A stretch of 25,584 nt of DNA from a virus: positions 1 through 25,584 of the IMG/VR virus record IMGVR_UViG_3300030450_001527; one strand, 5' to 3'. This document shows, in pieces, positions 625 to 25,584 of this stretch. The notes beneath the pieces were generated by a model that searched no databases, had not been told where the DNA came from, and saw only the letters and a list, made by a program, of their open reading frames with translations. A program made the translations under genes and the position numbers. Within the stretch, counting starts at the first letter, position 1. Each line of letters opens with the position of its first letter.

Positions 625-1332
625 TTAATCAAAATTACCCATTAACCAAAACACAAGCAAGTATCTATCTCCTTCTTCAACAGGTAGACCACGATGCATG
701 TGGCTAAAACTAGGAAACATTAAAGCTGTACCGCTGGGTAGGGGGTCTACAATTCCTTTACGGTGAAACTCAGTTCCTCCGCCTTTATACCCACTAGTAT
801 TCAGGGGCACCACAACACTAATATCTGCAGACGTATCATGATGCCAAGCCCCCTGTTGCTTGTCGGCTATATTATAGTTAGCCAACTGTATACTCCCAGG
901 ACGCACGGAGTATCTCTGCCATAACGCCATAAATGCAGGGTTGAGGTAGTTTAGGACTACCGACCATAAATTTTCAAATAGAGGTGGGCAGTTATCGTGA
1001 AGAGTAATTTCTGGTATTTGACGTAAAAAATCTTCGTTAGAGTTAGGTTCAAAACCAAGATAATGTTCCATGTGTTTTATTTCATCTAACATCATTTCAC
1101 AAAATTCTTGAGTAAATAATGGCATGGTAAAAACATCTGGTAATACTTCTGTTACATATTCTTGTAGCGTAGTAGTTAGATCGTTTTGTCCTTCATGTAT
1201 TTCGTATTGTTCTATATCGTTTTCGGAATCTTGCACAAGGGCGAGGGTAGTTTTATCTACCAGCCACTCCCCCTGAACGCCCAACAAAGTGTTTTTTAAG
1301 CGATAAGGCATAAGTTCTTTGATATTTGACAT
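625..1332 (-). CDS. 2-oxoglutarate/Fe(II)-dependent oxygenase (prolyl-4-hydroxylase-like)
   Basis: This 235 aa protein has the facial-triad pattern of 2-oxoglutarate/Fe(II) dioxygenases. The HxD motif is His164-His165-Asp166 within WHHDTS. The distal His is probably His213 in HMHRGLPV, and Arg223 in GDRYLL sits where the 2-oxoglutarate carboxylate is bound. The order HxD, then H-x-G-x-P-V, then G-x-R-Y resembles the P4H/PLOD-like branch of the superfamily. The N-terminal 100 residues have no recognised motif. Its start overlaps the stop of the preceding 58 aa ORF by one base (TAATG), implying translational coupling. The substrate (protein, nucleic acid or small molecule) cannot be inferred from sequence. 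It is the last gene of the long leftward array. Confidence 0.85.
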   Translation of the reverse strand: MSNIKELMPYRLKNTLLGVQGEWLVDKTTLALVQDSENDIEQYEIHEGQNDLTTTLQEYVTEVLPDVFTMPLFTQEFCEMMLDEIKHMEHYLGFEPNSNEDFLRQIPEITLHDNCPPLFENLWSVVLNYLNPAFMALWQRYSVRPGSIQLANYNIADKQQGAWHHDTSADISVVVPLNTSGYKGGGTEFHRKGIVDPLPSGTALMFPSFSHMHRGLPVEEGDRYLLVFWLMGNFD

Positions 1333-6994: not shown

Positions 6995-7292
6995 CGTTTT
7001 TACCTTTTATAAGACGAACATTTTTAGTTCTTAACCATTCTCGTAAAAGTTTGTTCCTTTCTATTGTACTAAGGTTTGTGTCTAAAAGTAAAGTTTTATA
7101 TTCCTGATTGTATAGATCATACCCAGCGTAATAATCACCATTACCTATATGATTAAACCGAACAATCTGCCATACTCTCTGTTTAGTCATGCCGTATTTA
7201 ACACCAATTTCTTCGAGCGTACACTCACTATTGAGTGAAAGCATAAATATTTCGAAATATTTTTTTCTTAAATCTTTTCTTTTACCTACCAT
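6972..7292 (-). CDS. Helix-turn-helix protein, sigma-70 region 4-like
   Basis: The 106 aa protein has a clear helix-turn-helix at about residues 25-46 (TLEEIGVKYGMTKQRVWQIV). The pattern L-x-E-I-G-x-x-x-G-[MV]-T-x-x-R-V-x-Q-I is that of sigma factor region 4, which recognises -35 elements. The rest is a basic helical C-terminus (STIERNKLLREWLRTKN). With no region 2 it cannot be a complete sigma factor. It is more likely a transcriptional regulator or an RNA-polymerase-redirecting protein. It overlaps the end of the polymerase gene by 11 bases. Confidence 0.7.
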   Translation of the reverse strand: MVGKRKDLRKKYFEIFMLSLNSECTLEEIGVKYGMTKQRVWQIVRFNHIGNGDYYAGYDLYNQEYKTLLLDTNLSTIERNKLLREWLRTKNVRLIKGKNDGTKSSS

Positions 7293-9165
7293 TGTAAAAC
7301 TCCTTGTAGTTCTCTACTGCTGTGCCCCAGCTGTGCCCTATTTCTGCGTCTACCTTATTAGGAACAACTAACGGAACACAGTCTGTCATAATCTGTATTA
7401 TTTTTTCACACTCCTCTACACCATCCACCGATATATCTAATTCATCATGAACTTGGGTGTGAGGTAGTATGCCTTCTTTATACAGTTCTACCATAGCTTT
7501 CTTTGTCATGTCTGCTGCTGAGCCTTGTATTAACCTATTCATAGCTTTATATGTATACGCACGTTTAAGGTCGTCGCCATATTTTTCTATTGCCTCTACA
7601 TAAGGTAATGCTTGTTCTCTATCAAATCTTGGCTCAAATAAATTAAACCTACATCTACGACCTAATATAGTTGTGATAAATCCACGATTACTACCCAGTC
7701 TAGAACATTGGTCTCGTAAACCCTTAATAAAAGGTACTCGTCTATGGAAGGTATCAAATAATATTTCAGCTTCTTGCGGTGAGATATCTAATTGAGATAT
7801 AAGTTTATCTTTACCCATGCCATAACTTAAACCAAGATTAATAATCTTAGCTTCTTTACGACTAATGTTAGCCATGTCTGCTACAACTTGATGAAAGTCT
7901 GCGTCTTTATTACGGTAAGCATCTACTGCTTCATCTGCACCTTCTTGTTGAGTAATAGAAGAGTAGTGAACAGTTAGTCTTGGTTCTTGTTGGGAGTAAT
8001 CAAAACAACCCCACTGTTTACCATCTTCTGGTACAAAAATGCTACGAATAAGAGGTCCTATATAATCATTACGTGCTGGTACTTGCTGTAGATTAGGATT
8101 ACTACTACTAAATCTACCAGTCACAGTTCCTCCACGGTCTGAGCGTAGTGGGTGTAATTCTCCATGAATTCTCCCATTAACACTATGTTCCAATATCATC
8201 TTATCTATAAAAGTAGTTCTAGCTTTGTTTAATTTACGTGCTCTTGCTATATTATTAGCTAACTTGTGATCGTGAGATTCTAGCCAATCTCCAGCAAAAG
8301 AAGGGGCGTTAGTTTTAGGTGTGCGTGGGTAACTTAACCCAGCCCTATCAAAAACAACAGCAACAGATTGTGCTGCCCATAAATCTGGGGCTACACCATA
8401 TTCTTTTTCTATTGATTGGATAATAGATTTCTCTTCTGATAATAATTTTTTACCTACTGACTCTGCTTTATCTAAATCAACAGGCACTCCTTTCCATCTC
8501 ATGTCTAATAGTATGGGTATCAAACTAGTTTCTAACTCATAAATTTTTTCTACATTCTCTTTTATTAATCCCTCTTTTAGTATTTGCCACAACTTTAAAG
8601 TTAGTGCTGCATCCTGCTCAGCGTACTTACCTACATACTTAGCTGGTAGTTTATACATTTCAGACTTGGGATTTATCTTATAGGCTTTTGCTGCTTCTTC
8701 AAGTAATGTCTCATCTTTTATTTCACCTACATATCTTTGCCCTAGTTTATTAAGTGAGTACCCATATTGATTTTCATCAACCAGAGGTGCAGCAAACATA
8801 GTGTCGTGTATTTTACCACCAACATGAACACCCATTCTTCTAAGCCACCCCATGTCATATAAAGAATTATGAAAAATCTTATCGTTTTCGTGGCTCAATT
8901 CTTTCTTTAACCATTCAGTCACTACTCTTTTATCTAAATTACCCCCACCTACATGTTGTATTGGTAGATAGATAGCAAACTTTTCTGTCGCTATAGCTAT
9001 ACCAGTGACATACCCCTGCCCTTCAAAAGCCCACGACGGTCCATGAGACATGAGTAGAGGGTCATAAGTTTCTAGATCAATAGCCACTTCTTTAAACTGA
9101 CTTAGCTCAGGTAGACTTGAGGGGGGTAACCAATCGGTTTCAGGTGTGAATAAAGAAGGTTGCAT
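7282..9165 (-). CDS. polA: DNA polymerase, family A, with 3'-5' exonuclease
   Basis: The 627 aa protein has an intact proofreading domain: Exo I AIDLETYD with Asp30/Glu32, Exo II NSLYD with Asp104, Exo III YAEQD with Asp185. It has all three polymerase motifs: A, FDYSQQEPR, with Asp389 and Glu394; B, RKEAKIINLGLSYG, with Arg436, Lys440 and Tyr448; C, VHDE, with Asp574. The 5'-3' exonuclease domain of Pol I is absent, as is usual for phage replicases. The residue equivalent to E. coli Phe762 is Leu444 (codon CTT at 7836-7834), the Leu variant known from many marine phages. It should be the phage replicase. An AGAGGG 6 bases before the ATG supports the start, which overlaps the 30 aa ORF's stop (TAATG). 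Confidence 0.97.
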   Translation of the reverse strand: MQPSLFTPETDWLPPSSLPELSQFKEVAIDLETYDPLLMSHGPSWAFEGQGYVTGIAIATEKFAIYLPIQHVGGGNLDKRVVTEWLKKELSHENDKIFHNSLYDMGWLRRMGVHVGGKIHDTMFAAPLVDENQYGYSLNKLGQRYVGEIKDETLLEEAAKAYKINPKSEMYKLPAKYVGKYAEQDAALTLKLWQILKEGLIKENVEKIYELETSLIPILLDMRWKGVPVDLDKAESVGKKLLSEEKSIIQSIEKEYGVAPDLWAAQSVAVVFDRAGLSYPRTPKTNAPSFAGDWLESHDHKLANNIARARKLNKARTTFIDKMILEHSVNGRIHGELHPLRSDRGGTVTGRFSSSNPNLQQVPARNDYIGPLIRSIFVPEDGKQWGCFDYSQQEPRLTVHYSSITQQEGADEAVDAYRNKDADFHQVVADMANISRKEAKIINLGLSYGMGKDKLISQLDISPQEAEILFDTFHRRVPFIKGLRDQCSRLGSNRGFITTILGRRCRFNLFEPRFDREQALPYVEAIEKYGDDLKRAYTYKAMNRLIQGSAADMTKKAMVELYKEGILPHTQVHDELDISVDGVEECEKIIQIMTDCVPLVVPNKVDAEIGHSWGTAVENYKEFYNGR

Positions 9166-9591: not shown

Positions 9592-10275
9592 TTAGTCGTA
9601 CCTACTGGGGCAAATATTCTGTTTGCCAAAGTAGCACCATTTACATTTAAACTGAGAAGGTCTAGCAGGGAACTCCTCAGTCGTCGTCATTTCTACAGCC
9701 CTAGCGTTTAGTCTTTCACGCTTAGCCTCTACTGTTTTTTTATCATATTGATATCTATCTAGCTTACCATGGTCCAAGTACCACAACTCAGTTGTAATGG
9801 TATCTAGTTCTGGTAGCCTTTTAAAAACTATTGAAGCATATAGCTCACACTGTTCTCTATGTCCTTCTTGATTACCATCGTATCTACCTGTTTTAAAATC
9901 AATTACCCTAGCGTTCTTATCTCCCTCCACATGTACGAAAGCATCTACTTTAGCCCTACCCCATGTGTCATGATCAAACCAGCCTGTAGGTTCCCATTCG
10001 GTAGTAAAAGCCCAATCTCCTTCACAAAGTACATGCCCTTTTAAATGCATGTCCTTTAATAAATCAAAGGCTTCTTCAAAATCCTGTAGGGCTTTAGGTA
10101 TTTCATCATACCTACCTCTTATGTATTCTTCACATTCTTTGTGAATGTCTTTTCCTCTGTCCATGGCTTTATTCCCAGGTTCTTTTATTCTCTGTATGTA
10201 CGCATACTCTGCTTTCTTTGGGCACCCTTCAAATGTTTTGAGTCTACTATAAGACCACTGCGGTATTGTAGGCAT
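9592..10275 (-). CDS. PD-(D/E)XK nuclease, Cas4/RecB-like, with probable Fe-S cluster
   Basis: This 227 aa protein has the PD-(D/E)XK nuclease core. The N-terminal motif is WSYSRLKTFEGCP, followed by GKDIH (His45), Asp111 in GRAKVDAF, Asp126-x-Lys128 in VIDFKTG, and a QxxxY-like element (Gln142-Tyr146). Four cysteines sit as in Cas4 and AddB: Cys18 near the N-terminus and Cys211, Cys214 and Cys222 at the C-terminus. This suggests a 4Fe-4S cluster that pins the two ends together. Such phage proteins resect or process DNA ends in recombination-dependent replication. No CRISPR array or cas1/cas2 is nearby, so it is a replication/recombination nuclease and not part of a CRISPR system. TAATG couples it to the ThyA-family gene. 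Confidence 0.88.
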   Translation of the reverse strand: MPTIPQWSYSRLKTFEGCPKKAEYAYIQRIKEPGNKAMDRGKDIHKECEEYIRGRYDEIPKALQDFEEAFDLLKDMHLKGHVLCEGDWAFTTEWEPTGWFDHDTWGRAKVDAFVHVEGDKNARVIDFKTGRYDGNQEGHREQCELYASIVFKRLPELDTITTELWYLDHGKLDRYQYDKKTVEAKRERLNARAVEMTTTEEFPARPSQFKCKWCYFGKQNICPSRYD

Positions 10276-11291
10276 TACTTTTCCTTATTATTAATTGATG
10301 TATTAAGCCAGTCAAACCCAGCGGTGCACCAATCAGTAGCCTCACACCTTTGAACTTCAACCAACGCCTCTTCGTACTCTCCTTTCTTATAACAGTACCA
10401 AGCGTCCTGCAGTGGGCAGGCGACGTCGGTAAAAAAATCATCCACAAACTCCATAGGTTCAAATGGTCTGCGGTCTAAAAATGCAACTAAATCTGTATCC
10501 CAAGTATGAGAGTCAACTGACATCATAGGGTAGGGATTTATAGCTTTATTATCATAGGGATTTAAACTTTCTTTCATGCTCCAAAAATCGAATGCGTCTT
10601 GTGCTTCTAATTTGGCATGCATGTCTTCAAACACATCTACATAAGCATGAAAACTGTCACTAATTTGTGTATAAAAGCCAGTCTCCACTCCTATAGCAGA
10701 AGCAACATATTCATGAAGCATAGACATATGAACAACGTTAGCTCCAAAAGTTCCCCAAATAATATCATTTGATCTATTGCTAACAGTCATGTGTAGCATA
10801 TTATCTCTTATTTTAAAATATATACAGGTATTACAAGGTACATCTACACCAGCCCTATTTAAATCCACCACAGGATCCCACATTTGAATAACACAACGTC
10901 TATCACTAGGATCCATTTGCAGTCTCTGGATAACTAATTCTAGTTGGTCGCCACCAAAATGTTCTCGCCACCTATAACCGTACGCACCATGTAAAACAAC
11001 ACCATCGTCGCTGTACTCCTTCATGCGTTTATTGTATTTAACCACATAATCTAAATCATTACGACCACCAAGCATCCACAAACTTTCCATAAAGTGGAAA
11101 AAAGGATTAGCTTTACGAATAGATTCAAATAGAACCCTTTCCTGTGGATTACCGAAAACAGTTGTAACAGGAACAGGAACCTCTATAACATCCCCTCCTC
11201 TACTAGTCGTAACGTCTTCTTTAAATTGATTTAATAGATCAAGCCCCTTTATAAAACCGTCATTCACATTTCTGCAATTTATAACTAACAT
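10275..11291 (-). CDS. thyA: Thymidylate synthase-family enzyme (ThyA or pyrimidine hydroxymethylase)
   Basis: The 338 aa protein has the ThyA fold's key residues. These are Glu69 in FMESLW, HGAYGYRW with Tyr104, the phosphate-binding Arg131-Arg132, catalytic Cys153 in VPCNT, the R-S-x-D motif at 173-176, Asn185, and H-x-Y at 215-217. The family transfers a one-carbon unit to C5 of dUMP or dCMP, giving dTMP or a hydroxymethyl- or methylpyrimidine nucleotide. Asn185, one residue further from R-S-x-D than in E. coli, fits dUMP rather than dCMP. The C-terminal 110 residues do not resemble ThyA, and the classical C-terminal tail is absent. With the glycosyltransferase and HMUDK-type neighbours, a dUMP hydroxymethylase is a serious alternative to a plain thymidylate synthase. 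Confidence 0.87.
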   Translation of the reverse strand: MLVINCRNVNDGFIKGLDLLNQFKEDVTTSRGGDVIEVPVPVTTVFGNPQERVLFESIRKANPFFHFMESLWMLGGRNDLDYVVKYNKRMKEYSDDGVVLHGAYGYRWREHFGGDQLELVIQRLQMDPSDRRCVIQMWDPVVDLNRAGVDVPCNTCIYFKIRDNMLHMTVSNRSNDIIWGTFGANVVHMSMLHEYVASAIGVETGFYTQISDSFHAYVDVFEDMHAKLEAQDAFDFWSMKESLNPYDNKAINPYPMMSVDSHTWDTDLVAFLDRRPFEPMEFVDDFFTDVACPLQDAWYCYKKGEYEEALVEVQRCEATDWCTAGFDWLNTSINNKEK

Positions 11292-11509
11292 TACTTACTC
11301 CTACTACTGATTAAAAAATTAACAATTTTTAATTTGTCTGTTATCTCTGCCATTGTCCCGACCAGTTTGTCTACTTCTGTGATTAAATTTGTGTGTTCGG
11401 ATATAACAGTTGGGTTGGTTAATAAAATGTCTAGTGTAACATTTATTGTGTCTCTTTCTCCTTCTAACCTCTTCTTATACGCCTCTAATATTTCAGAATA
11501 ATTCGCCAT
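11291..11509 (-). CDS. Small coiled-coil-like protein (72 aa)
   Basis: A 72 aa, mostly helical protein (SEILEAYKKRLEGERDTINV and TEVDKLVGTMAEITDKL) with heptad-like spacing of Leu, Ile and Val. A coiled coil or helical hairpin is therefore likely. No family was recognised. It overlaps the glycosyltransferase gene by 17 bases, and its stop overlaps the ThyA-family start in TAATG. It therefore sits inside the putative modification block and could be a small scaffold or partner, but nothing shows this directly. Confidence 0.7.
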   Translation of the reverse strand: MANYSEILEAYKKRLEGERDTINVTLDILLTNPTVISEHTNLITEVDKLVGTMAEITDKLKIVNFLISSRSK

Positions 11510-12266
11510 TTGCTGCTCCTTGTTTTAACGCTTTTTTCCACATAACTTTTACATCTTTACGGATAGCTCCACCCCAAGCTGTCTTAGTTTCTTTCTCTAC
11601 TACTGTCACTACTTCTGGGTGTAGCTTAGCCAATAACTCAGCCCCCTCTGATTGCACATCTAAGGTACGCCACTCACTACAGCCACCAGCTGCATTAGAA
11701 CTACCTTGTCCTTGTGCATAGTAATAACTTATCTTACTAGGATATCCCTTTTTAAGAAGTTGTAAATTAATATCAAAATCTTCCATAACTCTAGTTCTTG
11801 CTAGTTCTATGCCATCAAATTTATCTAAGTTGTAGGCTAGTAATCTCATGTACCTAGTAGTTTCTACTGAGAGAGCTTCTACTCTATTATTACCTTCCCT
11901 AGCACTCACGCCACAATGAGCATAGTCATCAAGCCACACATCTAACAACCCAAACAACGCAGGGTATTCCTCTGGTTCTAGGTATCTTAAATGCCAATCG
12001 TTAGTAGCTTTACGAATATAAAAACGCAAGTCGTCATCTAGCATAACTATTTTATTGTCATCGGTGTTGTTGTGGATAAACCTACGCTTAGTAGCTATAT
12101 CATGAACCGTGTTATCACACACCATAATTTTACAATCATATTTAGAGTATAAATCTTTTTCATGCTCGTCTACAACTAATGTGACTTCTTTGCGTAATTC
12201 TTCAGGAAAGAAAGACAAGGTCACTTGGCTGTCTGCTCTTCCTCTTGTGGGAATAAATATTCTCAT
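11493..12266 (-). CDS. GT-A-fold glycosyltransferase, TET-associated glycosyltransferase (TAGT)-like
   Basis: A 257 aa protein with the pattern of the phage TET-associated glycosyltransferases. The N-terminus is RIFIPTRGRA, a Rossmann-like strand carrying Arg for the sugar nucleotide, followed by LVVDEHE. Next come RRFI (61-64) and the metal-binding DxD-type motif MLDDDLRF (Asp77-Asp79). The C-terminal half has MEDFDINLQLL (161-171), then GQGSSNAAGGCSEWR. In the known family these enzymes attach sugars to hydroxymethylated pyrimidines in phage DNA. No TET/JBP dioxygenase and no C5 DNA methyltransferase are found here, but a ThyA-family enzyme lies one gene downstream. The hydroxymethyl group could thus be made at the nucleotide level. 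It overlaps the HMUDK-type gene by 4 bases. Confidence 0.78.
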   Translation of the reverse strand: MRIFIPTRGRADSQVTLSFFPEELRKEVTLVVDEHEKDLYSKYDCKIMVCDNTVHDIATKRRFIHNNTDDNKIVMLDDDLRFYIRKATNDWHLRYLEPEEYPALFGLLDVWLDDYAHCGVSAREGNNRVEALSVETTRYMRLLAYNLDKFDGIELARTRVMEDFDINLQLLKKGYPSKISYYYAQGQGSSNAAGGCSEWRTLDVQSEGAELLAKLHPEVVTVVEKETKTAWGGAIRKDVKVMWKKALKQGAANGELF

Positions 12267-13093
12267 TTATTTACCTTATATTTTGCACGTGGTCTGCCTT
12301 CTCCCAAACGTGTACGTTCATATTTATCAAACTCGCAAAGGCAGTGTTCGATATCTCTCATTTCTAGTGGTAGCATATGTCCTTGTAAATAATCAGGAGA
12401 GCAATCTAATAACTCTTTCATCTCACTATTTAGTTGTTCTTTTTTAATTGTTTTATTTAAATCTCTATGATGTATTCTATTCAAGCCACGCTGAGCTCCA
12501 GGTCCAGGATTAGCCCACGTCATAATATCTTTAGCATTCTCTAACCATTTAGTGTGTCGTAAGTCTGTTACTACCTCGTAAGCCATAAAACCACTAAAAC
12601 CAGCATGCTTTAAATACCCTCGCCATGTTTCTTCTAATGAGTCTTCTATCATAGGTGGGTGGTTATTGTATAACGGTGTTAGTATTTTATCTATAGTTTG
12701 TTCTATTTTAGTGCCACCTAAAGTGCCTGTCAACATGTACGCACCAGTATAAACTTTTTCTTTTCTGTTCATTCTACCTTGCATTATAGCTTTTAAACGT
12801 TCAGGATTCCAGTGCTCAGGAAAACCCAACTCTTCTAAAGTGTCTGGCCAATTGATTTGTCTAGCCATAGCCATAGCAAAAGGTAAATTAGGATGGTCAG
12901 CGTAAGGCTCTCGCCAGTTAACTCGTATCCATTCTGTAACTCTATCTAGTTCACGGTACACGTTACAAAAACTATACTCAGTTAATATAGCATCACTAGT
13001 CCACGGATAAGCTACACCGTTTTGCCGACGTAAGTATATGATATGACGTTCATTTAGATAATTAAAAAACTTTTGTACTTCTTCATGATTCAT
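12263..13093 (-). CDS. Putative DNA base hypermodification protein, 5-hmdU DNA kinase helical domain family
   Basis: The 276 aa helical protein matches the HMUDK helical family (PF18723, often named putative DNA base hypermodification protein). Family marks seen are ERHIIYLRR with PWTSD near residues 15-34, FCNVYRELDRVTEW (42-55), VYTGAY (114-119), PGPGAQRG (196-203) and the closing LCEFDKY (252-258). Related proteins act on 5-hydroxymethyluracil in phage DNA, phosphorylating it or replacing the phosphate with an amine or amino acid. No Walker A P-loop is present, so a kinase module, if used, would be separate. Its neighbours, a glycosyltransferase and a ThyA-family enzyme, fit a thymine hypermodification pathway. 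ATGA overlaps couple it to both flanking genes. Confidence 0.82.
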   Translation of the reverse strand: MNHEEVQKFFNYLNERHIIYLRRQNGVAYPWTSDAILTEYSFCNVYRELDRVTEWIRVNWREPYADHPNLPFAMAMARQINWPDTLEELGFPEHWNPERLKAIMQGRMNRKEKVYTGAYMLTGTLGGTKIEQTIDKILTPLYNNHPPMIEDSLEETWRGYLKHAGFSGFMAYEVVTDLRHTKWLENAKDIMTWANPGPGAQRGLNRIHHRDLNKTIKKEQLNSEMKELLDCSPDYLQGHMLPLEMRDIEHCLCEFDKYERTRLGEGRPRAKYKVNK

Positions 13094-13587
13094 GCTACTT
13101 CCTCTTTAGTCCACCACCATGGTTTAGGTGTGCACTTATTCCACTCAGCGTAATGCTTTTCGTTAATTAAATAATTACGATAGGCTTTAACTGGGTTAGG
13201 GTCTTTATACTGGTCTGGCATAGCTTGGGCTGGTGGATAAAACTTATACTTAGGTATCTGAGTAGGAACCTCTGCTAGTTTATCATTTAATTTACGATAA
13301 CTAGCGTGTACTTTACCATACCGTCTATTGTACTCATGGGATAAAGCTACAAAATGCATATAAAGCCATTTATAATTCATAACGCTTTCCCTAGCCCAGA
13401 TAGTACAAGGGTGGTTAAGGTGAGCAGTTTTATAAAGACCCAATAGGTCGCAGTACTCATCACCGTTATAAACACGGTGCACCGTAGATAACATTTGAGC
13501 ACTTTCTAAAGGCATCTTAACTACTAGTTTATCTGGTAGGTAGATTGCAGCTTTAGCTGGATCTTTATCGACATAAAATATATTCAT
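13090..13587 (-). CDS. Conserved phage protein (165 aa) of unknown function
   Basis: This 165 aa protein has the pattern MNIFYVDKDPAKAA, then VVKMPLESAQMLST, HPCTIWARES, YRRYGKVH-like (EYNRRYGKVH), AQAMPDQYKD and a Trp-rich end (KPWWWTKEE). I know this arrangement from many T4-like, cyanophage and marine phage genomes, where it is usually labelled hypothetical. No biochemical role is established to my knowledge. A nucleic-acid-binding protein is plausible from conserved Lys, His and aromatic residues. Its ATG is preceded by AGGAG (AGGAGATAAAAATAA). It overlaps the HMUDK-type gene by 4 bases and leads the modification block, so it may belong to that pathway. Confidence 0.8.
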   Translation of the reverse strand: MNIFYVDKDPAKAAIYLPDKLVVKMPLESAQMLSTVHRVYNGDEYCDLLGLYKTAHLNHPCTIWARESVMNYKWLYMHFVALSHEYNRRYGKVHASYRKLNDKLAEVPTQIPKYKFYPPAQAMPDQYKDPNPVKAYRNYLINEKHYAEWNKCTPKPWWWTKEEVA

Positions 13588-13640: not shown

Positions 13641-15140
13641 TTAAATCATAACTTGAAACTCTTTTCTAGTTCTCCCTTGAATAATGTGTAGGTTTTGTTT
13701 AGTTCTTGTTACACCAACATAGAACGCTCGACACTCGTTGTCTGGGCTTTTGTATAATTCATCAAAAGTTCTAGTAGCCATGTCTGTTAAAAGCACAACA
13801 TTTTCACATTCTCCACCTTTAGTAGCGTGTATAGTGTTCAGCTTAATTCTTGAAGAATTTACTTTTTGGTGCTTACGCAAGCAAGATATAATATACTCCC
13901 TTTGGGAATCCCCTATTAAATCAAACACAGCGTGCCAAATACCATCAACCATAAGACCATAGCTTTCCTTTAATTGATTAATGTCTAGTAATGTGTCTGG
14001 GTCGACCTGTTTAAGAGTTTTAAAGCCAGTCTTAACTCCTTTACCTGCTTTCATGTAACCGTATATCTTCTTTACTCTTATGGCTTCTATACTTTCTCCT
14101 TTACGCAAAGACTCCCAATCCAGAATAGCTTTCAATAAATTTTCTGTTACAGAAGGTTTATTATTCTTAGTATAGAAGAACCCACAAGTCCTGAGATGTT
14201 GTTCTACATTATTTAATAGGTAATTGTTTCTTGCTAAAAACAGCCATTCTCCTTCGCTATAGTCTATATGCTCATAGCTATTATGGTAGGTAACGCTTCC
14301 TTCATCCTCTCTAGGTATCCATGTTTTATGTCTTCTCTTTTTAATACGCTTAACAATATTAAGAGCTACATCATGAACCTTTTTAGGTACTCTGTAACTT
14401 TGTTCCAGATATATTTCTTTACCGTCTAAATTTATAAAATGATCTGTATCTGCACCTGCCCATTTATAAATAGCTTGGTCATCGTCCCCTGCTATGTAAA
14501 CGTGTTCTAAACCTTGAGCCAATTTATGCACACACTTCCATTGTAAAGCAGATAAGTCTTGAGCTTCGTCTACAATTAAAGCCTTTAAAGGTGGGCGAGT
14601 ATCAAAGTCTATAAACCCAGAAAGCATATCAGTGTAGTCTTTTAGAAAGTTTGTTTGTTTAAAATTATTGTAGCTACTACAGAACCAGTCAAAATGAATC
14701 CAACTCAAATCACCCTGAGCCACGTTCCAAGCTTCTCGGTAAGTTTTACAGGTATTACGTGCCATGTTTTCTAGGAATAACATATTGTCCCCTAAACTAT
14801 TTAACGCCATTAAATTTTCACCGTCCCAAGCTGAGTTAATACGTTCCCCAACCAATTGACTAAATGTTCGTAAGTCTTTACGGTCTAGTACATCCGACTT
14901 AGTAAGTCCTTGCCAAAAATAACAAAGCGAATGAATCGTTCGGAAATATATTAATTGATCTGGTTCATAGTCAAACTTAGCAACCGCACGAGTTAGTGCT
15001 TCTGTTGCAGCTTTCTTAGTAAACGCAAGGTATGCTAATTCATATGGTTGTATATCTTCTTGGAATAAATCTTCAACTTTATTAAGCAGGAAAGTAGTTT
15101 TCCCAGTTCCAGGTGGTCCAAGAACTATGTTCCAACTCAC
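13641..15140 (-). CDS. UvrD/Rep-like superfamily 1 helicase
   Basis: The 499 aa protein has the SF1A helicase motifs in order: Walker A GPPGTGKT (8-15), Ia FTKKAA (40-45), RTIHSL (67-72), Walker B DEAQD (191-195), III GDDDQAIYKWAGA (218-230), IV QSYR (247-250), V HATKGGE (438-444), and VI YVGVTRTKQNL (474-484). It should be an ATP-dependent 3'-5' DNA helicase. It is shorter than E. coli UvrD because the 1B and 2B insertions are reduced. Its start overlaps the primase stop by 4 bases, and no other helicase is next to the primase. It may therefore serve the replication fork directly, though repair or recombination is equally possible. Confidence 0.94.
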   Translation of the reverse strand: MSWNIVLGPPGTGKTTFLLNKVEDLFQEDIQPYELAYLAFTKKAATEALTRAVAKFDYEPDQLIYFRTIHSLCYFWQGLTKSDVLDRKDLRTFSQLVGERINSAWDGENLMALNSLGDNMLFLENMARNTCKTYREAWNVAQGDLSWIHFDWFCSSYNNFKQTNFLKDYTDMLSGFIDFDTRPPLKALIVDEAQDLSALQWKCVHKLAQGLEHVYIAGDDDQAIYKWAGADTDHFINLDGKEIYLEQSYRVPKKVHDVALNIVKRIKKRRHKTWIPREDEGSVTYHNSYEHIDYSEGEWLFLARNNYLLNNVEQHLRTCGFFYTKNNKPSVTENLLKAILDWESLRKGESIEAIRVKKIYGYMKAGKGVKTGFKTLKQVDPDTLLDINQLKESYGLMVDGIWHAVFDLIGDSQREYIISCLRKHQKVNSSRIKLNTIHATKGGECENVVLLTDMATRTFDELYKSPDNECRAFYVGVTRTKQNLHIIQGRTRKEFQVMI

Positions 15141-18766: not shown

Positions 18767-20212
18767 ATGACAGAATTTATATTTAAGACTGATCCTTATG
18801 ATCACCAGCGTCAAGCCTTAACTGAATCTTGGGATAGAGAAGAGTATGCTCTCTTTATGGAGATGGGTTGTGGTAAATCTAAAGTTGTTATTGATAACTT
18901 TGTTCATTTGTATGGTCAATCAAAAGTTTACAATGTTCTAATTGTTGCACCTAAAGGTGTATACAATAATTGGATAGCTAAAGAAATACCCACACACATG
19001 GCAGACCATGTAACACACGACATAGTTAAGTGGCAAAGTAATCACACTAAGAAGTTTGAAAAAGAAATGGAAAAACTTTTCGAATTTGATTTTAAATTAA
19101 AAATACTTGTTATGAATATAGACGCTTTTAGTACTAAAAAAGGTTGTCAGTATGCTAGTAGGTTTATACAACACAATAAAACTATGTTTATAATAGACGA
19201 AAGCACAACTATAAAAAACCCAGAAGCAAAACGCACAGCTAATTGTGTTAGGTTAGGTAAGTATGCACACTACAAAAGAATCCTAACAGGTTCACCCATA
19301 ACTAAAAGCCCATTAGATTTATATAGTCAATGTATGTTTTTAGATCCAGCAATACTAGGCTTTAGCAGTTTTTATTCTTTCCGTGCAAGATACGCAGACC
19401 TAATAGAAAAACGTGGTCAAGGTAGAACCTACAAATTTGTAGCAGGATATAAAAATTTAGAAGAGTTAAATGAAACTTTAGAAAAATTTAGCCATAGAGT
19501 TCTAAAGAAAGACTGCTTAGATCTACCAGAAAAAGTGTATATGCGTAGAGAAATACAAATGACACCTGATCAAGTAAAAGCCTATAGAGAATTACAAAGG
19601 TTTTCTGTTACTTTATTAAAAAATTCTAAGACTGTAACCATAAACCATGTCATAACGCAAATCATACGTTTACACCAAATTTCATGTGGATTCACAGTAA
19701 CCGATGACGGAGTTACTACCGAAATATCTTCTCAGAGGCTTCCAGAATTGCTGTCTATTATAGAAGAAACAGATGGAAAGATGATTATTTGGGCAAATTA
19801 TAGATACGATATACAACGTATAGAAAAAACCTTAAAAGAACTTTATGGTAATAATTCAGTAGGAACTTACTACGGTGGAGTTGAACAAGAAGAACGTGAA
19901 AGGGTAATTGAAGAGTTTCAAAATCCAGACAGCCCTTTAAGATTTTTTGTTGGTAATACTCAAACTGGTGGCTACGGTATTACACTGACTGCTGCCAGCA
20001 CGGTAGTGTACTATAGCAACAACTATGATTTAGAAAAACGTTTACAATCAGAAGACCGTGCTCATCGTATTGGTCAAACCAATAAAGTTACTTATATAGA
20101 TATTGTTTGTGAAAAAACTGTTGATGAAAAAATAGTGAAAGCATTAAGAAAGAAACAATCTATTGCTAGCTTAGTTCTAGGCGAAGACCGTATTACTGAT
20201 TGGTTAACTTAG
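18767..20212 (+). CDS. SNF2-type superfamily 2 helicase/ATPase
   Basis: The 481 aa protein, the only plus-strand gene, has SF2/SNF2 motifs. A Q-motif-like YDHQRQAL (11-18) precedes Walker A MGCGKS (33-38). Motif Ia is IVAPKGVYNNW, Walker B is DEST (144-147), motif III is TGSP (174-177), and motif V is TQTGGYGITLTAAS. Motif VI is QSEDRAHRIGQ (427-437), the SNF2 hallmark. The length is that of a compact two-RecA-domain phage enzyme without extra domains. It should translocate on double-stranded DNA, with roles proposed for phage relatives in replication, recombination or branch migration. The ATG has only a weak GAG-type ribosome binding site. Its TAG stop overlaps the stop of the opposing gene. 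Confidence 0.93.
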   Translation: MTEFIFKTDPYDHQRQALTESWDREEYALFMEMGCGKSKVVIDNFVHLYGQSKVYNVLIVAPKGVYNNWIAKEIPTHMADHVTHDIVKWQSNHTKKFEKEMEKLFEFDFKLKILVMNIDAFSTKKGCQYASRFIQHNKTMFIIDESTTIKNPEAKRTANCVRLGKYAHYKRILTGSPITKSPLDLYSQCMFLDPAILGFSSFYSFRARYADLIEKRGQGRTYKFVAGYKNLEELNETLEKFSHRVLKKDCLDLPEKVYMRREIQMTPDQVKAYRELQRFSVTLLKNSKTVTINHVITQIIRLHQISCGFTVTDDGVTTEISSQRLPELLSIIEETDGKMIIWANYRYDIQRIEKTLKELYGNNSVGTYYGGVEQEERERVIEEFQNPDSPLRFFVGNTQTGGYGITLTAASTVVYYSNNYDLEKRLQSEDRAHRIGQTNKVTYIDIVCEKTVDEKIVKALRKKQSIASLVLGEDRITDWLT

Positions 20213-21238: not shown

Positions 21239-23452
21239 TTAATAATTATACTTTAATTCTATTAGTGGGCTACCGCCTTTGTTCATTTCTAACCCTTCTA
21301 AATCTAACCCTTCTAAATCTATACTCACGTCAGGAGTGTCTATAGGTAACGCACTCGGTTGGTCTGGTTCTGCTTTACTAGTAGTGCCATCTTCTTGTCC
21401 ATAAAATCTGGCTAATGCTCTAGCTGCAACTTTAAATTCAGAATCTATAAGACCGTCTTTACCAAATAATTTAATTTCTGGAGCTATAACACCTTTTTCT
21501 AAACGTTCCCCACGTTGTATTCTTTTGTATAGTTTTTCTGGATTTAAAATCATGTCTTCAAAACTGCCTTTCCTTACAGAACGTCTTACTTGATTAATAG
21601 CAGTAATAACCCTACCAGGACGAGTAAAGATTCCGACGTATGCCCTTGCTAAACCTGTCGTAACTTTCATTAATTCATCATCACCTATTTTACCACCGAC
21701 AGATTCGATATTTATATCCTTAATGATTTTATTGTATGTTTTTAAACCGTCCACAAACTCATCACCAAACACAACTTTTAAACCCTCTCCATGTTGCTTG
21801 AGATATTTATCTATAGCTGCAGGATTACTGCTGCCTTTTTCCACAAAGTCTCTATAGATTAATTTTTGAAATTCACCAATAGAATCTTCTGGTAAAACTT
21901 TTAATAACGTTTGTGTATTACTTATTCTAGCATCTTTCCATATTTCATCAAACAATGCTTCTGGTTCATTTCGATTCATAGCACTTTTTAATTTAAAAGC
22001 TAGAGCTTTTTCATCTGTAGGTAAGTTTTTTATATCTTCTAAGTCAACATCATTTATAATTCTATTACCGAAACTTTGTTTTAATACAACAGGATCACCT
22101 AAATCAAGTACAACAGGATCTACCCCAGTTTGTTCAAAAACATCGTCGTATCCTTTATTTATAACATTTTGTTGACCAATCATTTGTCTTTCAACGTCCA
22201 CTGCTGAATCAACTGACAAATCTACTTCTCTTTGTAGTATACCTCTTTGTCCTGTTGTTCCTACATCACTCATCCCCATTATTTGTGGAGTTGTGAGAGT
22301 ATCAATTACCTGTGCTGCTGGACCTGAACCAGCCGTCTTTATATCTTGAGCTGTTTCCCAAGCGTTTTTAAAAGTCTCTTTGTCTATACCTATACTGATA
22401 GGGTTAGCCCCCATAAATTTAGCAAAAGTTGCAAACGCTGCATTACCACCTAATGACCAAGCACCCACAACTTTAGAATCATCCATAGCTGTCTGCATTA
22501 TTTTTTCAGGTGTGTAGGTTTCGTCTAATACGCCACGTTCTTTTAAACCTTTCAAGTTTTGATATCGCCACAAGAAATGAGCCATGGTCTCGCCAGCTAC
22601 CGTAAAAGTTAGTGGTGCAGCTAACGTACCAGCTGTAGCACCTGCTGCTGTACCTGCTAATTGAAAAAATCCACTGTCTGTCATCGCAGTTGAAGCACCT
22701 AAACCTAAAACAGCTCCAGTACCACCCCCCTGTACTCTACCTACCGAACTACCATAACCAAACCCTGCTAATCCTGCTGCAATCTCTAAAGATAAAGGTT
22801 GCATAACTGCTGTAACATCTGCCCAATCAATACCTGGAGGAGAAACAAATTGTTTAGTATTAGTTTCTGGGTCTGTGTAAATTACTCTATTAGTACGTGG
22901 CTCTAGTTGTATGTTTAAATCTTCTAACGGTACATTAGGGTAAGCCTCTTTTAATAAAACTTTTAACCCTCTGTCTCGTTGGTCAGCTGGTAAATATGCT
23001 GCATCTTTTTGTACTTGATACGGTGCACCTTTGTCTACTTCTATACCAGCACGTTCTGCAGCGTCTATCTCAGCTGTACGAGGAGAAAAGAGTTCGCCTA
23101 AATTTAAACCGAATGCTTGTTGGTCTTTCCTAAGTGGTTGATCACCAGGAGTACCAAACCGTATGAGATCTCTTACAGCGTCGATTGGGTTTAAGTTTAA
23201 ATATCTGTCTCTCATACTATTAGGTGCACCAACTATGGTATCTATAGTATCTGGGCTGAGATTAGGAAATTTATCTAATAGATAATTTTTTACGTCAGGA
23301 GAAAGTAATTCTCTTTTTTGTGTTTTAGGACCATAGTATCCAGGAGACACGGTCGCTTGACCACTGCCCATGGGGGCTGTAGGTATAGGTTGTTGAAGTA
23401 ATAGTTTTTCGTCTATTACCTCATCAATATCTATAATATCATTTTGTGCCAT
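21239..23452 (-). CDS. Large hypothetical protein (737 aa), probable internal virion or structural protein
   Basis: The N-terminal 210 residues are soluble and contain DLIRFGTPGDQPLR. Residues about 214-296 are Gly/Ala-rich and hydrophobic (EIAAGLAGFGYGSS, GGGTGAVLGLGAS, FQLAGTAAGATAGTLAAPLT), the type of segment that can enter a membrane. The remaining 440 residues are helical and charged. The C-terminus has the short repeat DLEGLDLEGLEM. A large protein with one Gly/Ala-rich hydrophobic stretch is a common look for ejected internal virion proteins, such as those forming a conduit through the cell envelope. That comparison is inference. It lies 1 base from the 342 aa gene and 2 bases from the next upstream gene, in one late transcript. 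Confidence 0.6.
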   Translation of the reverse strand: MAQNDIIDIDEVIDEKLLLQQPIPTAPMGSGQATVSPGYYGPKTQKRELLSPDVKNYLLDKFPNLSPDTIDTIVGAPNSMRDRYLNLNPIDAVRDLIRFGTPGDQPLRKDQQAFGLNLGELFSPRTAEIDAAERAGIEVDKGAPYQVQKDAAYLPADQRDRGLKVLLKEAYPNVPLEDLNIQLEPRTNRVIYTDPETNTKQFVSPPGIDWADVTAVMQPLSLEIAAGLAGFGYGSSVGRVQGGGTGAVLGLGASTAMTDSGFFQLAGTAAGATAGTLAAPLTFTVAGETMAHFLWRYQNLKGLKERGVLDETYTPEKIMQTAMDDSKVVGAWSLGGNAAFATFAKFMGANPISIGIDKETFKNAWETAQDIKTAGSGPAAQVIDTLTTPQIMGMSDVGTTGQRGILQREVDLSVDSAVDVERQMIGQQNVINKGYDDVFEQTGVDPVVLDLGDPVVLKQSFGNRIINDVDLEDIKNLPTDEKALAFKLKSAMNRNEPEALFDEIWKDARISNTQTLLKVLPEDSIGEFQKLIYRDFVEKGSSNPAAIDKYLKQHGEGLKVVFGDEFVDGLKTYNKIIKDINIESVGGKIGDDELMKVTTGLARAYVGIFTRPGRVITAINQVRRSVRKGSFEDMILNPEKLYKRIQRGERLEKGVIAPEIKLFGKDGLIDSEFKVAARALARFYGQEDGTTSKAEPDQPSALPIDTPDVSIDLEGLDLEGLEMNKGGSPLIELKYNY

Positions 23453-23454
23453 TA

Positions 23455-25584
23455 TTAATTACTTGTTTTTGTTTGTTGTGCTTTGTTGTAAAAAATTCTA
23501 AAAGCATTAAATTCCTCTTCGGATAAATGCAGTTTTAATTGATCAAAATAGCTACTTAGATATTGATCATCATTAGAATAATACTCGTATTTATTAATCA
23601 TATCTCTGTATGTACCCATGATCGGGTTACTATCTAATAAAGTATAATCTTTAGTGAGCCCATACTGTACTCCAACTGGGCTATCCATACCTATCCTAGC
23701 ATTAAATTCTACAACTCCAGGAACATTTTCTTCACCGCTTGCATCAGCCACAAATGTGTTTGTGTTTGTAAAATCGCTAGCAGTCCTAGTTTGACCGTAC
23801 ACATAAGTGCCTTGGTACAACTCTTCGTACTTATTAAGTTCCGCTAATGTTTTATTTACGTCTGCTATTAAAGCATCTTGTGCTGCTTTATCTGGTTGAC
23901 CACTAGCGTCTGTAATTTTTCGTAAATTAGTAGGTTTGATTAATTGATTTAAACTGTTTCTATTTCTTGCTATCGTTTTGCGTCTAAAACTATTACTTAT
24001 TTCCATAAACGCTTGTAATGTTTTAGCATTACCACCTTGAATACCAACAAAAGAAATCATTTCTCTATCTGAAATAGCCCTTAAATCTGTAGTACCTTTT
24101 CCTCCATAAGCTGCAGCACCTACTAAAGCTAAGTCAAATAATGCTGCTTCTAATGCATCTCCAACTACACCAGCGTCTTCAAAAAATTTAGCTAATCCTG
24201 TGCGGTTTCCTTCTGTTCCTAAAAACTTTTTAAACTCCTCAGAACCAAGAACTTTGGCTCTCATCTCATCTATAGAAGCACCTTGCTTACCGTCTACAAC
24301 ATACGTACCATACTCAGTAAAAGCATTACGGAAGCCTTCAAAATTAATTCTAAGAGAATCTCCTATTTTTGCTGCAGCACCAACTAAATTATTAAAAGGT
24401 ATGTTTTGTTGGTTAGGATTAGCTGTTAAATAATCTGTGAGTATACGGTCTGTTTCTGCTGCCGAAGTAAAGTAGTTAGTAGTTGCTTGTTGAATGCCTG
24501 TGGCTTTTTCTACTAAATCATCATACGCTTTAGTTCCTCTTCTTTCTCTTTGTCTCTGCAAACCTGCACTACCTGAAGTAAACTCCGTTGTTCCATCTGC
24601 TCCTATAAACATACTTATACCTGAATCATCCATGTAGAGATCAGGGTTATCTAAAATTTGTTGGTCGGTAACAAAAACGCCTTCACCTGATTCTTTATTG
24701 ATAACATATTTTGGTGAGCCTGAAGTTGGAGCAAAACTTGTAGTGAAACCATCTTTATTTAATTTTTCCATTCCTGCTGGTGTTAACCAACGTTGTGGTT
24801 GTTTTTCTCCGTCTTTAAAAATGTTGTACAATTTTAAATTTGTTGGGTCTTTGTGCCCTTCTCTCAATGTCGCCCCACCTTGTTTAGCAGGATCCCAAGC
24901 GTTTATACTATCTTGATCTATTAAAACATGACTAATTCCACCACCAGGAGAATAAATACTCATGGCTTGGACATCTGCATTTTTAGCAGGTCTTATTTTT
25001 CCTTGAAATTCTTCTCGCCCAGCGTAATAATTAAATTCTGCATCAGATAAAGGCACAGTTGATTTATCGATAAAATTACCAGTGTTACTTATATCATACA
25101 TTTTAGGAGCTTCTAAATTTGTTTTCCTTAATGCTGCGTTGATTGCTGCTTTATTTTTAAAGTCTAACATACCGAACTGCATTACTAAGTTATTGTAGTC
25201 TTGATATTTTGCTATCTCCTCAGCTCGTAATTCTTTTTTATATTGTAGTTCACCAGATTTTTTAGCTGTAAAATAAGCTAAAGCACTTTCACTCAATGCT
25301 GTGCCCCAATCCTCTCCTTCAGTACCAGATTTAATTAAAGCACTACCTAACATTAACCACGGCAGACCTTTGTCTGGCTCTGGTAAGTCGTCTGGGTATT
25401 TTAGTTTGCCGTGTAATATGTCTGCTGCTTCGTAAATTTGATCCATATCAAAATCTGTAGGATCTGACGCTAGTATTTCACCTTTTGTTTTTATAATGTT
25501 TTTTACATCTGCTACATTACCAGAAGCTAACATTTCAGCAGCATCAATTTGCCCTGTCTCTTGTCTTTTGTTTAATATGGGTTG
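23455..25584 (-). CDS. Large hypothetical protein, 5'-truncated at the window edge; probable virion protein
   Basis: The frame stays open from its stop at 23455 to the right edge. The codons before the first internal Met (25533) read ILNKRQETGQIDAAEMLASG without a stop, so the true start probably lies outside the window. At least 709 residues are present. Most is soluble and helical, with segments FNYYAGREEFQGKIRPA, YSPGGGISHVLID and a hydrophobic Ala-rich stretch ALEAALFDLALVGAAAYGG. A C-terminal helical region contains LSEEEFNAFRIFYNKA. No enzyme motif was found. It is the first of three tightly packed co-directional large genes, which suggests a late structural cluster continuing beyond the window. 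Confidence 0.6.
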   Translation of the reverse strand, partial: QPILNKRQETGQIDAAEMLASGNVADVKNIIKTKGEILASDPTDFDMDQIYEAADILHGKLKYPDDLPEPDKGLPWLMLGSALIKSGTEGEDWGTALSESALAYFTAKKSGELQYKKELRAEEIAKYQDYNNLVMQFGMLDFKNKAAINAALRKTNLEAPKMYDISNTGNFIDKSTVPLSDAEFNYYAGREEFQGKIRPAKNADVQAMSIYSPGGGISHVLIDQDSINAWDPAKQGGATLREGHKDPTNLKLYNIFKDGEKQPQRWLTPAGMEKLNKDGFTTSFAPTSGSPKYVINKESGEGVFVTDQQILDNPDLYMDDSGISMFIGADGTTEFTSGSAGLQRQRERRGTKAYDDLVEKATGIQQATTNYFTSAAETDRILTDYLTANPNQQNIPFNNLVGAAAKIGDSLRINFEGFRNAFTEYGTYVVDGKQGASIDEMRAKVLGSEEFKKFLGTEGNRTGLAKFFEDAGVVGDALEAALFDLALVGAAAYGGKGTTDLRAISDREMISFVGIQGGNAKTLQAFMEISNSFRRKTIARNRNSLNQLIKPTNLRKITDASGQPDKAAQDALIADVNKTLAELNKYEELYQGTYVYGQTRTASDFTNTNTFVADASGEENVPGVVEFNARIGMDSPVGVQYGLTKDYTLLDSNPIMGTYRDMINKYEYYSNDDQYLSSYFDQLKLHLSEEEFNAFRIFYNKAQQTKTSN

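Follow-up and report, generated by a model that had tools for sequence, protein, structure and literature searches.

A hel, TAGT and ThyA-family gene cassette in a viral genome record, best read as a TET-free, kinase-free route to glycosylated 5-hydroxymethyl-2'-deoxyuridine

Introduction

Hypermodification of thymidine by way of 5-hydroxymethyl-2'-deoxyuridine (5hmdU), a DNA kinase and transfer enzymes has been described for the phages M6, ViI and phiW-14, and M6 is thought to act through 5hmdU in DNA (PMC6449724, accessible sections). In pelagiphages of clades V, VIII and IX, thymidylate synthase (TS) has been reported with aG/PT-PPlase1 and likened to M6, and the TS region sometimes also holds a beta-glucosyl-HMC-alpha-glucosyltransferase and a 5'-deoxynucleotidase (PMC9599517, accessible sections). 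Here we describe a module of minus-strand genes at positions 10275-13587 of the viral record IMGVR_UViG_3300030450_001527, a stretch of 25,584 bases hereafter called the window. Its core consists of hel, a stand-alone protein of the HMUDK_hel family, a glycosyltransferase of the TAGT family, and a ThyA-family enzyme that is probably a dUMP hydroxymethylase (HM). Our preferred reading is that the cassette provides glycosylated 5hmdU without TET and without a kinase. It probably produces this nucleoside as a base J-like replacement for thymidine in the phage DNA; the chemical steps, the acceptor base and the role of hel are what we infer.

Results

A conserved core of three genes

An earlier note on this DNA had assigned three of the module's proteins to the ThyA, TAGT and HMUDK helical families. 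All three gave named Pfam matches, each lying above its curated cut-off: the 276 aa protein matched PF18723 (E 1.6e-46, 159.3 bits; cut-off 25), the 257 aa protein PF20691 (E 1.5e-18, 67.9 bits; cut-off 27.5), and the 338 aa protein PF00303 (E 1.1e-20). The layout it had described was likewise recovered, with all five open reading frames (ORFs) of the module on the minus strand and overlapping successively by 4, 4, 17 and 1 bp.

Profile scans of IMG/VR returned 51 TAGT loci and 74 hel loci, most of them with hel, TAGT and HM in the same replication block. Across all collections, 143 loci were distinct by hel sequence, and neighbours were counted within 4 kb of hel. TAGT was the sole tailoring class near hel in 71 of the 143 loci, with HM also present in 69 of these 71, and the order hel>TAGT>HM was kept in 67 of the 72 distinct loci holding all three genes. 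Compared with six relatives, the ratio of nonsynonymous to synonymous substitution rates (dN/dS) was 0.05-0.10 for hel, 0.02-0.09 for TAGT and 0.07-0.13 for ThyA, with dS above 1 (saturated) in many pairs. The hel, TAGT and ThyA genes are a conserved core under purifying selection in the HTVC023P-like lineage, and by this conservation the cassette is real and functional. The core recurs in the Brevibacterium phage LuckyBarnes as the block HM-TAGT-TAGT-hel (gp38-gp41). At another locus, L166:8001-9697, there are apparently two tandem hel-type genes ahead of TAGT.

These data bear on an alternative in which ThyA and hel would be remnants, or would work on nucleotides alone, and the target of TAGT would be the cell surface or a protein and not DNA. 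The GT-A enzymes nearest to TAGT in fold, which act on polysaccharides and proteins, would fit such a role. It is nevertheless highly improbable given the gene order kept in 67 of 72 loci, the purifying selection on all three genes, the recurrence in other phages and the apparent swap of TAGT with a DNA kinase described below.

A ThyA-family enzyme with hydroxymethylase residues

The best named relatives of the window ThyA-family protein were M6/YuA-like enzymes (48% identity over 97% of the length), some of which are annotated as deoxyuridylate hydroxymethyltransferase; identity to M6 gp58 was 47%. Residues were aligned with those of M6, SPO1 gp29 (noted as a dUMP hydroxymethylase), T4 gp42 (noted as a dCMP hydroxymethylase) and Escherichia coli ThyA, in which the roles of the aligned residues are well established. 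The window enzyme retains C153, R173, S174, D176, N185, H215 and Y217, which comprise the catalytic Cys, the Arg-Ser-x-Asp motif and HxY. Asn185, which the earlier note had taken to suit dUMP, indeed aligns with Asn177 of E. coli ThyA, and SPO1 gp29 and M6 gp58 also have Asn there. The position of E. coli Trp80 falls in a gap, and E. coli His147 is replaced by Asn (N154, directly after the catalytic Cys); both changes are common to the window enzyme, M6, SPO1 gp29 and seven other aligned phage relatives. The combination of N185, the lost Trp80 and the Cys-Asn pair looks like a hydroxymethylase signature rather than that of a synthase, suggesting that the protein is probably a dUMP hydroxymethylase of the SPO1 gp29/M6 gp58 type.

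The same alignment speaks to the possibility that the sugar is placed on cytosine, with the ThyA-family enzyme acting as a T4-like dCMP hydroxymethylase and TAGT glycosylating 5-hydroxymethylcytosine. The solved sequence nearest to the window enzyme is a CMP 5-hydroxymethylase (5b6d), and for T6-like phages it has been suggested that TAGT attaches the second glucose on cytosine (PMC13390438, accessible sections). However, T4 gp42 retains Trp and has Tyr180 in the Asn177 column, whereas the window enzyme shares both the Asn and the loss of Trp80 with SPO1 gp29 and has the Asn in common with M6 gp58 also. Moreover, hel elsewhere often accompanies 5hmdU-type kinases. We therefore consider a cytosine acceptor quite unlikely.

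A GT-A glycosyltransferase of the TAGT family

The residues D77, D78 and D79 were invariant among the 26 TAGT proteins aligned. The predicted model of the window TAGT (predicted local distance difference test score, pLDDT, 89.5) matched GT-A enzymes and lay nearest to those using UDP-sugars, the best being GalNAc-T2 (Z 13.6; root-mean-square deviation, rmsd, 4.5; 221 residues aligned), and the best Foldseek E value was 3.2e-6. A search of PDB sequences with the TAGT profile returned a single match, at E 0.12, and the window protein itself matched just 4 phage records. The family name derives from an association with TET/JBP dioxygenases, which lies outside the Pfam model. No hel-TAGT fusion was seen among the long hel or TAGT ORFs of the first 114 loci, in which no dedicated search for fusions was made.

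Absence of TET, C5-methylase and kinase from TAGT records

The Pfam scan of the window covered 20 ORFs, leaving aside the smaller ones and the two longest (21239-23452 and 23455-25584). No Tet_JBP, C5-methylase or 5hmdU kinase domain was found in these 20 ORFs, in agreement with the earlier note, which had seen neither a TET dioxygenase nor a DNA C5-methyltransferase in the module and no P-loop kinase beside the HMUDK-type protein. Whole records were searched in two sets. The first, a choice from over 80 distinct contigs, comprised 50 records: 34 viral contigs and 16 named phages. The second comprised 48 records selected from newer loci found through more distant hel proteins, with L099 (639 bases) left out. 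Pikmin apparently occurs once in each set, as W10 and as G067, which agree in length and match, so that the 98 records correspond to about 97 genomes.

At the curated cut-offs, hel was present in 48 of the 50 records of the first set and TAGT in 34 (32 with hel), the PF18748 kinase in 8, the PF18751 kinase in 2 and the amino acid:DNA transferase family ADDT (PF18724) in 9; the PF18747 kinase was present in 0 of 50. Among the 48 hel records, 32 carried TAGT and 10 a PF18748 or PF18751 kinase, and none carried both. ADDT never shared a record with TAGT (0 of 50). The second set yielded TAGT in 6 records, PF18748 in 3 and PF18751 in 2, none shared, with 7 further PF18748 matches below the cut-off and none of those with TAGT. 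Both sets together hold 40 TAGT records and 15 kinase records (PF18748/PF18751) with an overlap of 0. Below the cut-offs, Pikmin gave an 18-bit TAGT match, and PaMx11 and AIIMS-Plu-RaNi gave kinase matches of 17-18 bits. Because 27 of the 40 TAGT records belong to one lineage (G001-G027), the more distant cases count for more: these are LuckyBarnes, L103/L105, L138, L147, L153, L166, L167, L202 and QuadZero. In L100, TAGT lies within the record yet does not adjoin hel. The lack of a kinase, on which the earlier note had remarked, is thus no peculiarity of the window phage: no TAGT record searched held one over the cut-off (0 of 40), and the hel of M6 is also a separate protein, with its kinase next door.

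Tet_JBP (PF12851) was found in 0 of the 32 records with hel and TAGT and in 1 of 50 overall, a phage without hel, and C5-methylase (PF00145) in 0 of 50, with 10 of 14 controls positive. On these counts a TET-dependent cytosine pathway was rejected.

An M6-type pathway might still be encoded elsewhere in the genome, with a kinase and an amino-acid transferase to which TAGT adds or with which it competes. The window is a fragment of only 25.6 kb, and PMC9599517, in its accessible sections, likens TS with aG/PT-PPlase1 to M6, which is close to that paper's own reading. In the 27 whole records of the same lineage (G001-G027), however, seven of which span 59-64 kb compared with 60.9 kb for HTVC023P, no PF18748, PF18751, PF18747 or ADDT match was obtained at E 0.01. 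With the kinase/TAGT overlap of 0 in the 98 records, this makes such a pathway very unlikely, and the whole-record Pfam searches led us to reject the idea that the related records conceal an M6-type kinase or ADDT.

Two annotations met in these searches are likely to be wrong: M6 gp54 (L004:7426-7989), a "terminase small subunit", matches the PF18748 kinase, and a "SNF2 DNA repair protein" of DLP_6 (L126:10945-12291) contains a Tet_JBP match.

Hel is constant and the tailoring enzyme is exchanged

A profile scan of IMG/VR returned at least 543 hel relatives, from which 80 loci were kept. The hel loci formed 66 clusters at 70% identity, L012, a hel fragment of 65 aa, being counted under TAGT. 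A local search within 4 kb of hel divided them into 19 with a kinase, 15 with TAGT, 2 with TAGT and a second glycosyltransferase, 5 with a class I methyltransferase, 4 with a GT-B-like protein, 3 with another glycosyltransferase-like protein and 18 where none of these was seen. None of the 19 kinase clusters held another tailoring class, compared with 29 clusters holding other classes (Fisher p 1e-6; kinase versus TAGT clusters, p 1e-3), although these p-values are only a guide because the 70% clusters are not independent. Of 21 kinase contigs, 13 had ADDT near hel, compared with 0 of 122 others, as expected if amino acids join only phosphorylated 5hmdU.

The kinase-for-TAGT exchange is direct between two phages of Microbacterium foliorum: BouleyBill carries hel with an adjoining P-loop kinase and no TAGT, and QuadZero carries hel with two TAGT genes and no PF18748/PF18751 kinase. 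Hel is fused to a kinase in Goe26, and a thymidylate-kinase domain is fused to hel in a 564 aa protein at L134:7254-8948 (hel part, 387 bits), indicating a direct pairing of hel with a catalyst. Since hel serves kinases, glycosyltransferases and a methyltransferase, it is unlikely to be part of a kinase; its more probable task is to handle the substrate that they share, 5hmdU in DNA.

The methyltransferase was above the Pfam cut-offs in the 3 of 3 loci tested (L111, L193 and L196) and would predict O-methylated 5hmdU. The labels of the other classes are weaker: GT-B-like proteins of L106, L189 and L208 matched Glycos_transf_1 at 22-23 bits, below the cut-off of 26.4, and neither the GT-B-like protein of L159 nor the other glycosyltransferase-like group (L103, L161 and L154) had a Pfam match.

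Several loci stand out by their gene content. A class I methyltransferase lies by hel within the same type of replication block, where the window has TAGT, at L111:9138-9980 and in L193, L196, L176 and L173 (the last two by local search only). The row at L106:7679-13340 consists of a GT-B-like glycosyltransferase, a radical SAM-SPASM protein, hel, the hydroxymethylase, a 169 aa gene and an NAD-dependent epimerase. The Microbacterium phage Pikmin (L120, 3778-4587) has hel, but its thymidylate synthase is annotated as ThyX.

Predicted fold and role of hel

Across 70 hel proteins, 12 columns were invariant, including R47, D50, F169, D177, G197-G199, C253, E254 and K257. The AlphaFold2 model of the window hel (pLDDT 95.5; predicted TM-score 0.91) was realigned to 264 of Foldseek's best chains, and the top chain was PaMx11 gp46, the 5-PmdU DNA glycinyltransferase (rmsd 3.9, 220 residues aligned), at Z 11.5, below the value of about 13 under which mostly helical models call for caution. 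The chains that followed were largely HhH DNA glycosylases, and HhH-GPD glycosylases fill most of the 50 rows shown (Z 6.0-10.6), with Foldseek E values above 0.8 and no significant hhalign score. PaMx11 gp46 belongs to the ADDT family (PF18724 at its gene), and in PaMx11 a putative kinase adjoins hel. Among the predicted viral proteins of BFVD, the nearest named family other than hel was again ADDT (E 8e-4), and a search of PDB sequences with the hel profile gave no match. In a by-eye alignment, the hel motif GFSGFMAYEVVTDL...NPGPGAQRGL resembles the HhH glycosylase hairpin and the loop after it, with the invariant G197 of the GPG motif standing where HhH glycosylases have the catalytic Asp; no glycosylase Asp or Lys was recognisable by eye in hel.

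The structural comparisons give moderate support to a predicted likeness between hel and both HhH DNA glycosylases and the PaMx11 5-PmdU glycinyltransferase. The natural reading of this predicted fold, and the most likely one, is that hel may be a DNA-binding protein that presents 5hmdU. A rather unlikely alternative, which would be compatible with our reading of the cassette, is that hel has catalytic activity of its own, as a PUGT-like transferase or as a catalyst of pyrophosphorylase type, with TAGT acting after it. Its top structural match is a transferase, PaMx11 gp46, 12 residues are invariant in the 70 hel proteins, and some records call it a pyrophosphorylase; chemically unrelated partners, however, are hard to square with one fixed step, unless that step is common to all.

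We tentatively extend the presenter role to a wider proposal, which is possible but not the outcome we would expect most: hel may be a universal 5hmdU-presenting subunit with a DNA-glycosylase-like fold, kept by phages together with the dUMP hydroxymethylase while one decorating enzyme (kinase, GT-A, GT-B or O-methyltransferase) is swapped, so that unseen decorations such as base J-like sugars and 5-methoxymethyl-dU would circulate in relatives of pelagiphages, which are abundant.

Proposed pathway

In the pathway that we favour, the ThyA-family enzyme would convert dUMP to 5hm-dUMP, as its residues and relatives suggest. The product would be phosphorylated and then incorporated into DNA by the phage DNA polymerase A (PolA), as proposed for M6-like phages. 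TAGT would then transfer a sugar from a host nucleotide-sugar directly onto the hydroxymethyl group in DNA, with no phosphorylated or amino-acid intermediate, while hel would most likely bind DNA and present the 5hmdU base to TAGT. In relatives, hel would present 5hmdU to a kinase, a GT-B-like glycosyltransferase or a methyltransferase instead. The likely use of the modified DNA would be protection from host nucleases. The order of steps suggested in the earlier note, a hydroxymethyl group made on dUMP and a sugar added in DNA, is supported as the probable one.

Genomic setting and accessory genes

The features of the window are listed in Table 1. Its PolA is 54% identical to that of the uncultivated phage 023Pt_psg01 and 49% to that of Pelagibacter phage HTVC023P, suggesting that the window phage is related to HTVC023P. 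The helicase adjoins polA directly in phage DSL-LC04, with no cassette between them, and in 023Pt_psg01 the interval holds just two small genes; in the window it contains the cassette, the PD-(D/E)XK nuclease and a 109 aa gene. The cassette is therefore an optional insertion in a fixed replication block.

Table 1. Genes of the module and other features of the window
Feature	Coordinates	Strand	Remarks
Pyr_excise (T4 endonuclease V-like) family protein, 165 aa	13090..13587	-	PF03013, phrog_624; frequent neighbour, not core
hel, stand-alone HMUDK_hel (alias aGPT-Pplase1), 276 aa	12263..13093	-	PF18723, phrog_2396; core
TAGT-family GT-A glycosyltransferase, 257 aa	11493..12266	-	DDD at D77-D79, phrog_842; core
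72 aa ORF	11291..11509	-	phrog_1811; not core
ThyA-family enzyme, probable dUMP hydroxymethylase (HM), 338 aa	10275..11291	-	phrog_5131; core
PD-(D/E)XK nuclease	9592..10275	-	PF12705, 71.4 bits; downstream neighbour, 1 bp overlap with module
UvrD-type helicase	13641..15140	-	upstream edge of cassette slot
DNA polymerase A (PolA)	7282..9165	-	downstream edge of cassette slot
AlkB-like (PF13532) and OGFOD2-like 2-oxoglutarate- and Fe(II)-dependent (2OG-Fe(II)) oxygenases	1505-2104 and 625-1332	-	Pfam; outside module
SNF2-type helicase	18767-20212	+	longest plus-strand gene

The 165 aa protein had been called an extra and unexplained member of the module. It is extra, a neighbour and not part of the core, but it does have a family, Pyr_excise (PF03013, E 8e-9, 36.2 bits; cut-off 23). 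It counts as a neighbour because its relatives occur in 602 phage records, chiefly of Synechococcus, Vibrio and Acinetobacter phages, compared with 4 for the window TAGT. In T4 endonuclease V, Glu23 is catalytic and the N-terminal Thr2 also has a role. Glu23 is kept as E28, while the second residue is Asn and not Thr2, and in a two-sequence alignment R22 and R26 of the T4 enzyme correspond to Leu and Gln. A PDB search with the protein returned PhoB chains only (E 0.67-0.76). The 72 aa ORF matched phrog_1811 (E 1.1e-7) and had no Pfam match; its dN/dS was 0.2 (one relative). Near hel, the Pyr_excise gene was found in 50 and the 72 aa ORF in 19 of the 71 TAGT contigs. Both genes look dispensable, with the reservation that some of these contigs end near hel, and as core parts they were rejected on these counts and the 602 records.

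The PD-(D/E)XK nuclease was near hel in 64 of 71 TAGT contigs versus 1 of 21 kinase contigs and probably serves general replication or recombination. Neither 2OG-Fe(II) oxygenase of the window was matched by the TET/JBP model in Pfam. An AlkB-like gene was near hel in 15 of 20 methyltransferase-type, 13 of 71 TAGT-type and 0 of 21 kinase-type contigs; an AlkB-like oxygenase was considered as a candidate source of the hydroxyl, a step for which the hydroxymethylase already accounts. The SNF2-type helicase runs opposite to its neighbours, in relatives as well, and the protein at 21239-23452 had no match when searched against phages.

Discussion

Besides the dependence among clusters and the modest Z score already mentioned, several observations weigh against the reading proposed here. 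N185 and the missing Trp would also be compatible with dCMP activity or some dTMP activity. No gene for a sugar donor was identified in the window. In duplex DNA, T4 beta-GT glucosylates 5hmU only if it is mispaired with guanine (PMC4111573, accessible sections), so a family name does not tell the acceptor base. Manatee Spring virus MW202897 has TAGT and a hydroxymethylase without hel, and hel is therefore not needed in every case. For the fold, Foldseek found nothing below E 0.8 for the hel model in the PDB, DUF2419 proteins, which are not glycosylases, stand at ranks 4 and 5 of the list, and the hhalign profile links have probabilities of 1.0% (hel to ADDT) and 0.6% (hel to endonuclease III, Nth). 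For the exchange, 18 of the 66 hel clusters lack a recognised tailoring enzyme (among these, L134 is the fusion and the records of L142, L150 and L119 hold PF18751), and one TAGT cluster, L146, rests on the local search, with no Pfam match. QuadZero, BouleyBill and Pikmin each carry a gene annotated as thymidylate kinase. The kinase phage M6 has a 13-bit TAGT match, below the cut-off and on the opposite strand of its RNR gene, which was taken as chance.

If the reading is correct, phages can make sugar-modified thymidine without TET and without a DNA kinase, which would give bacterial viruses a simple counterpart of base J. The unexplained hel family would also gain a role open to experiment, that of a single protein presenting DNA to interchangeable catalysts. 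Such a protein would account for the diversification of thymidine hypermodifications and could be put to use in building decorated DNA to order. The isolated phages LuckyBarnes and QuadZero (hel with TAGT) and BouleyBill (kinase, on the host of QuadZero) make the idea directly testable. Within the literature searched, the new point is that different tailoring enzymes replace one another while hel is retained: no description of a TAGT-for-kinase exchange was found in the open-access literature searched, and papers behind subscription (notably Iyer 2013 and Lee 2022) may treat parts of it.

Comparison with known systems

The combination as such, which the earlier note had offered as a variant, is not new, because a 2022 paper had already described pelagiphages with TS, hel and a glycosyltransferase together in one region (PMC9599517, accessible sections). 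Those HTVC023P-type phages (clades II, V, VIII and IX) have TS and aG/PT-PPlase1 near polA, as in the window, with PolA identities of 49-54%; the accessible sections of that paper do not take up the absence of a kinase, the swapping of tailoring enzymes or how hel folds. The M6/YuA cluster (M6 gp51-gp59) resembles the window in its HM (47%, gp58) and hel (42%) and in its gene order of hel, small gene(s) and HM near polA. It differs in having a P-loop 5hmdU kinase (PF18748) adjoining hel and an amino acid:DNA transferase (PF18724). The window has TAGT instead, and neither of the two was found in the records related to it. LuckyBarnes gp38-gp41 likewise unites HM, TAGT and hel in one block in which no kinase was found, but it belongs to an actinophage, has two TAGT genes and a hel only about 30% identical. 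For the Rhodococcus phage Tonitrus, as for the window, thymidine hypermodification has been proposed (PMC11955845, accessible sections).

The TAGT family is shared with the TET-TAGT cytosine hypermodification systems, whereas no C5-methyltransferase or TET was found in the window and the hydroxymethyl group would be added at the mononucleotide stage, probably on dUMP. Those cytosine systems were reportedly treated by Iyer 2013, Burke 2021 and Pyle 2024. In kinetoplastid base J, the hydroxyl is introduced in DNA by JBP dioxygenases. The predicted product of the window cassette would be alike, a glycosylated 5-hydroxymethyluracil in DNA, but its hydroxyl would come from a nucleotide hydroxymethylase and not from JBP dioxygenases acting in DNA.

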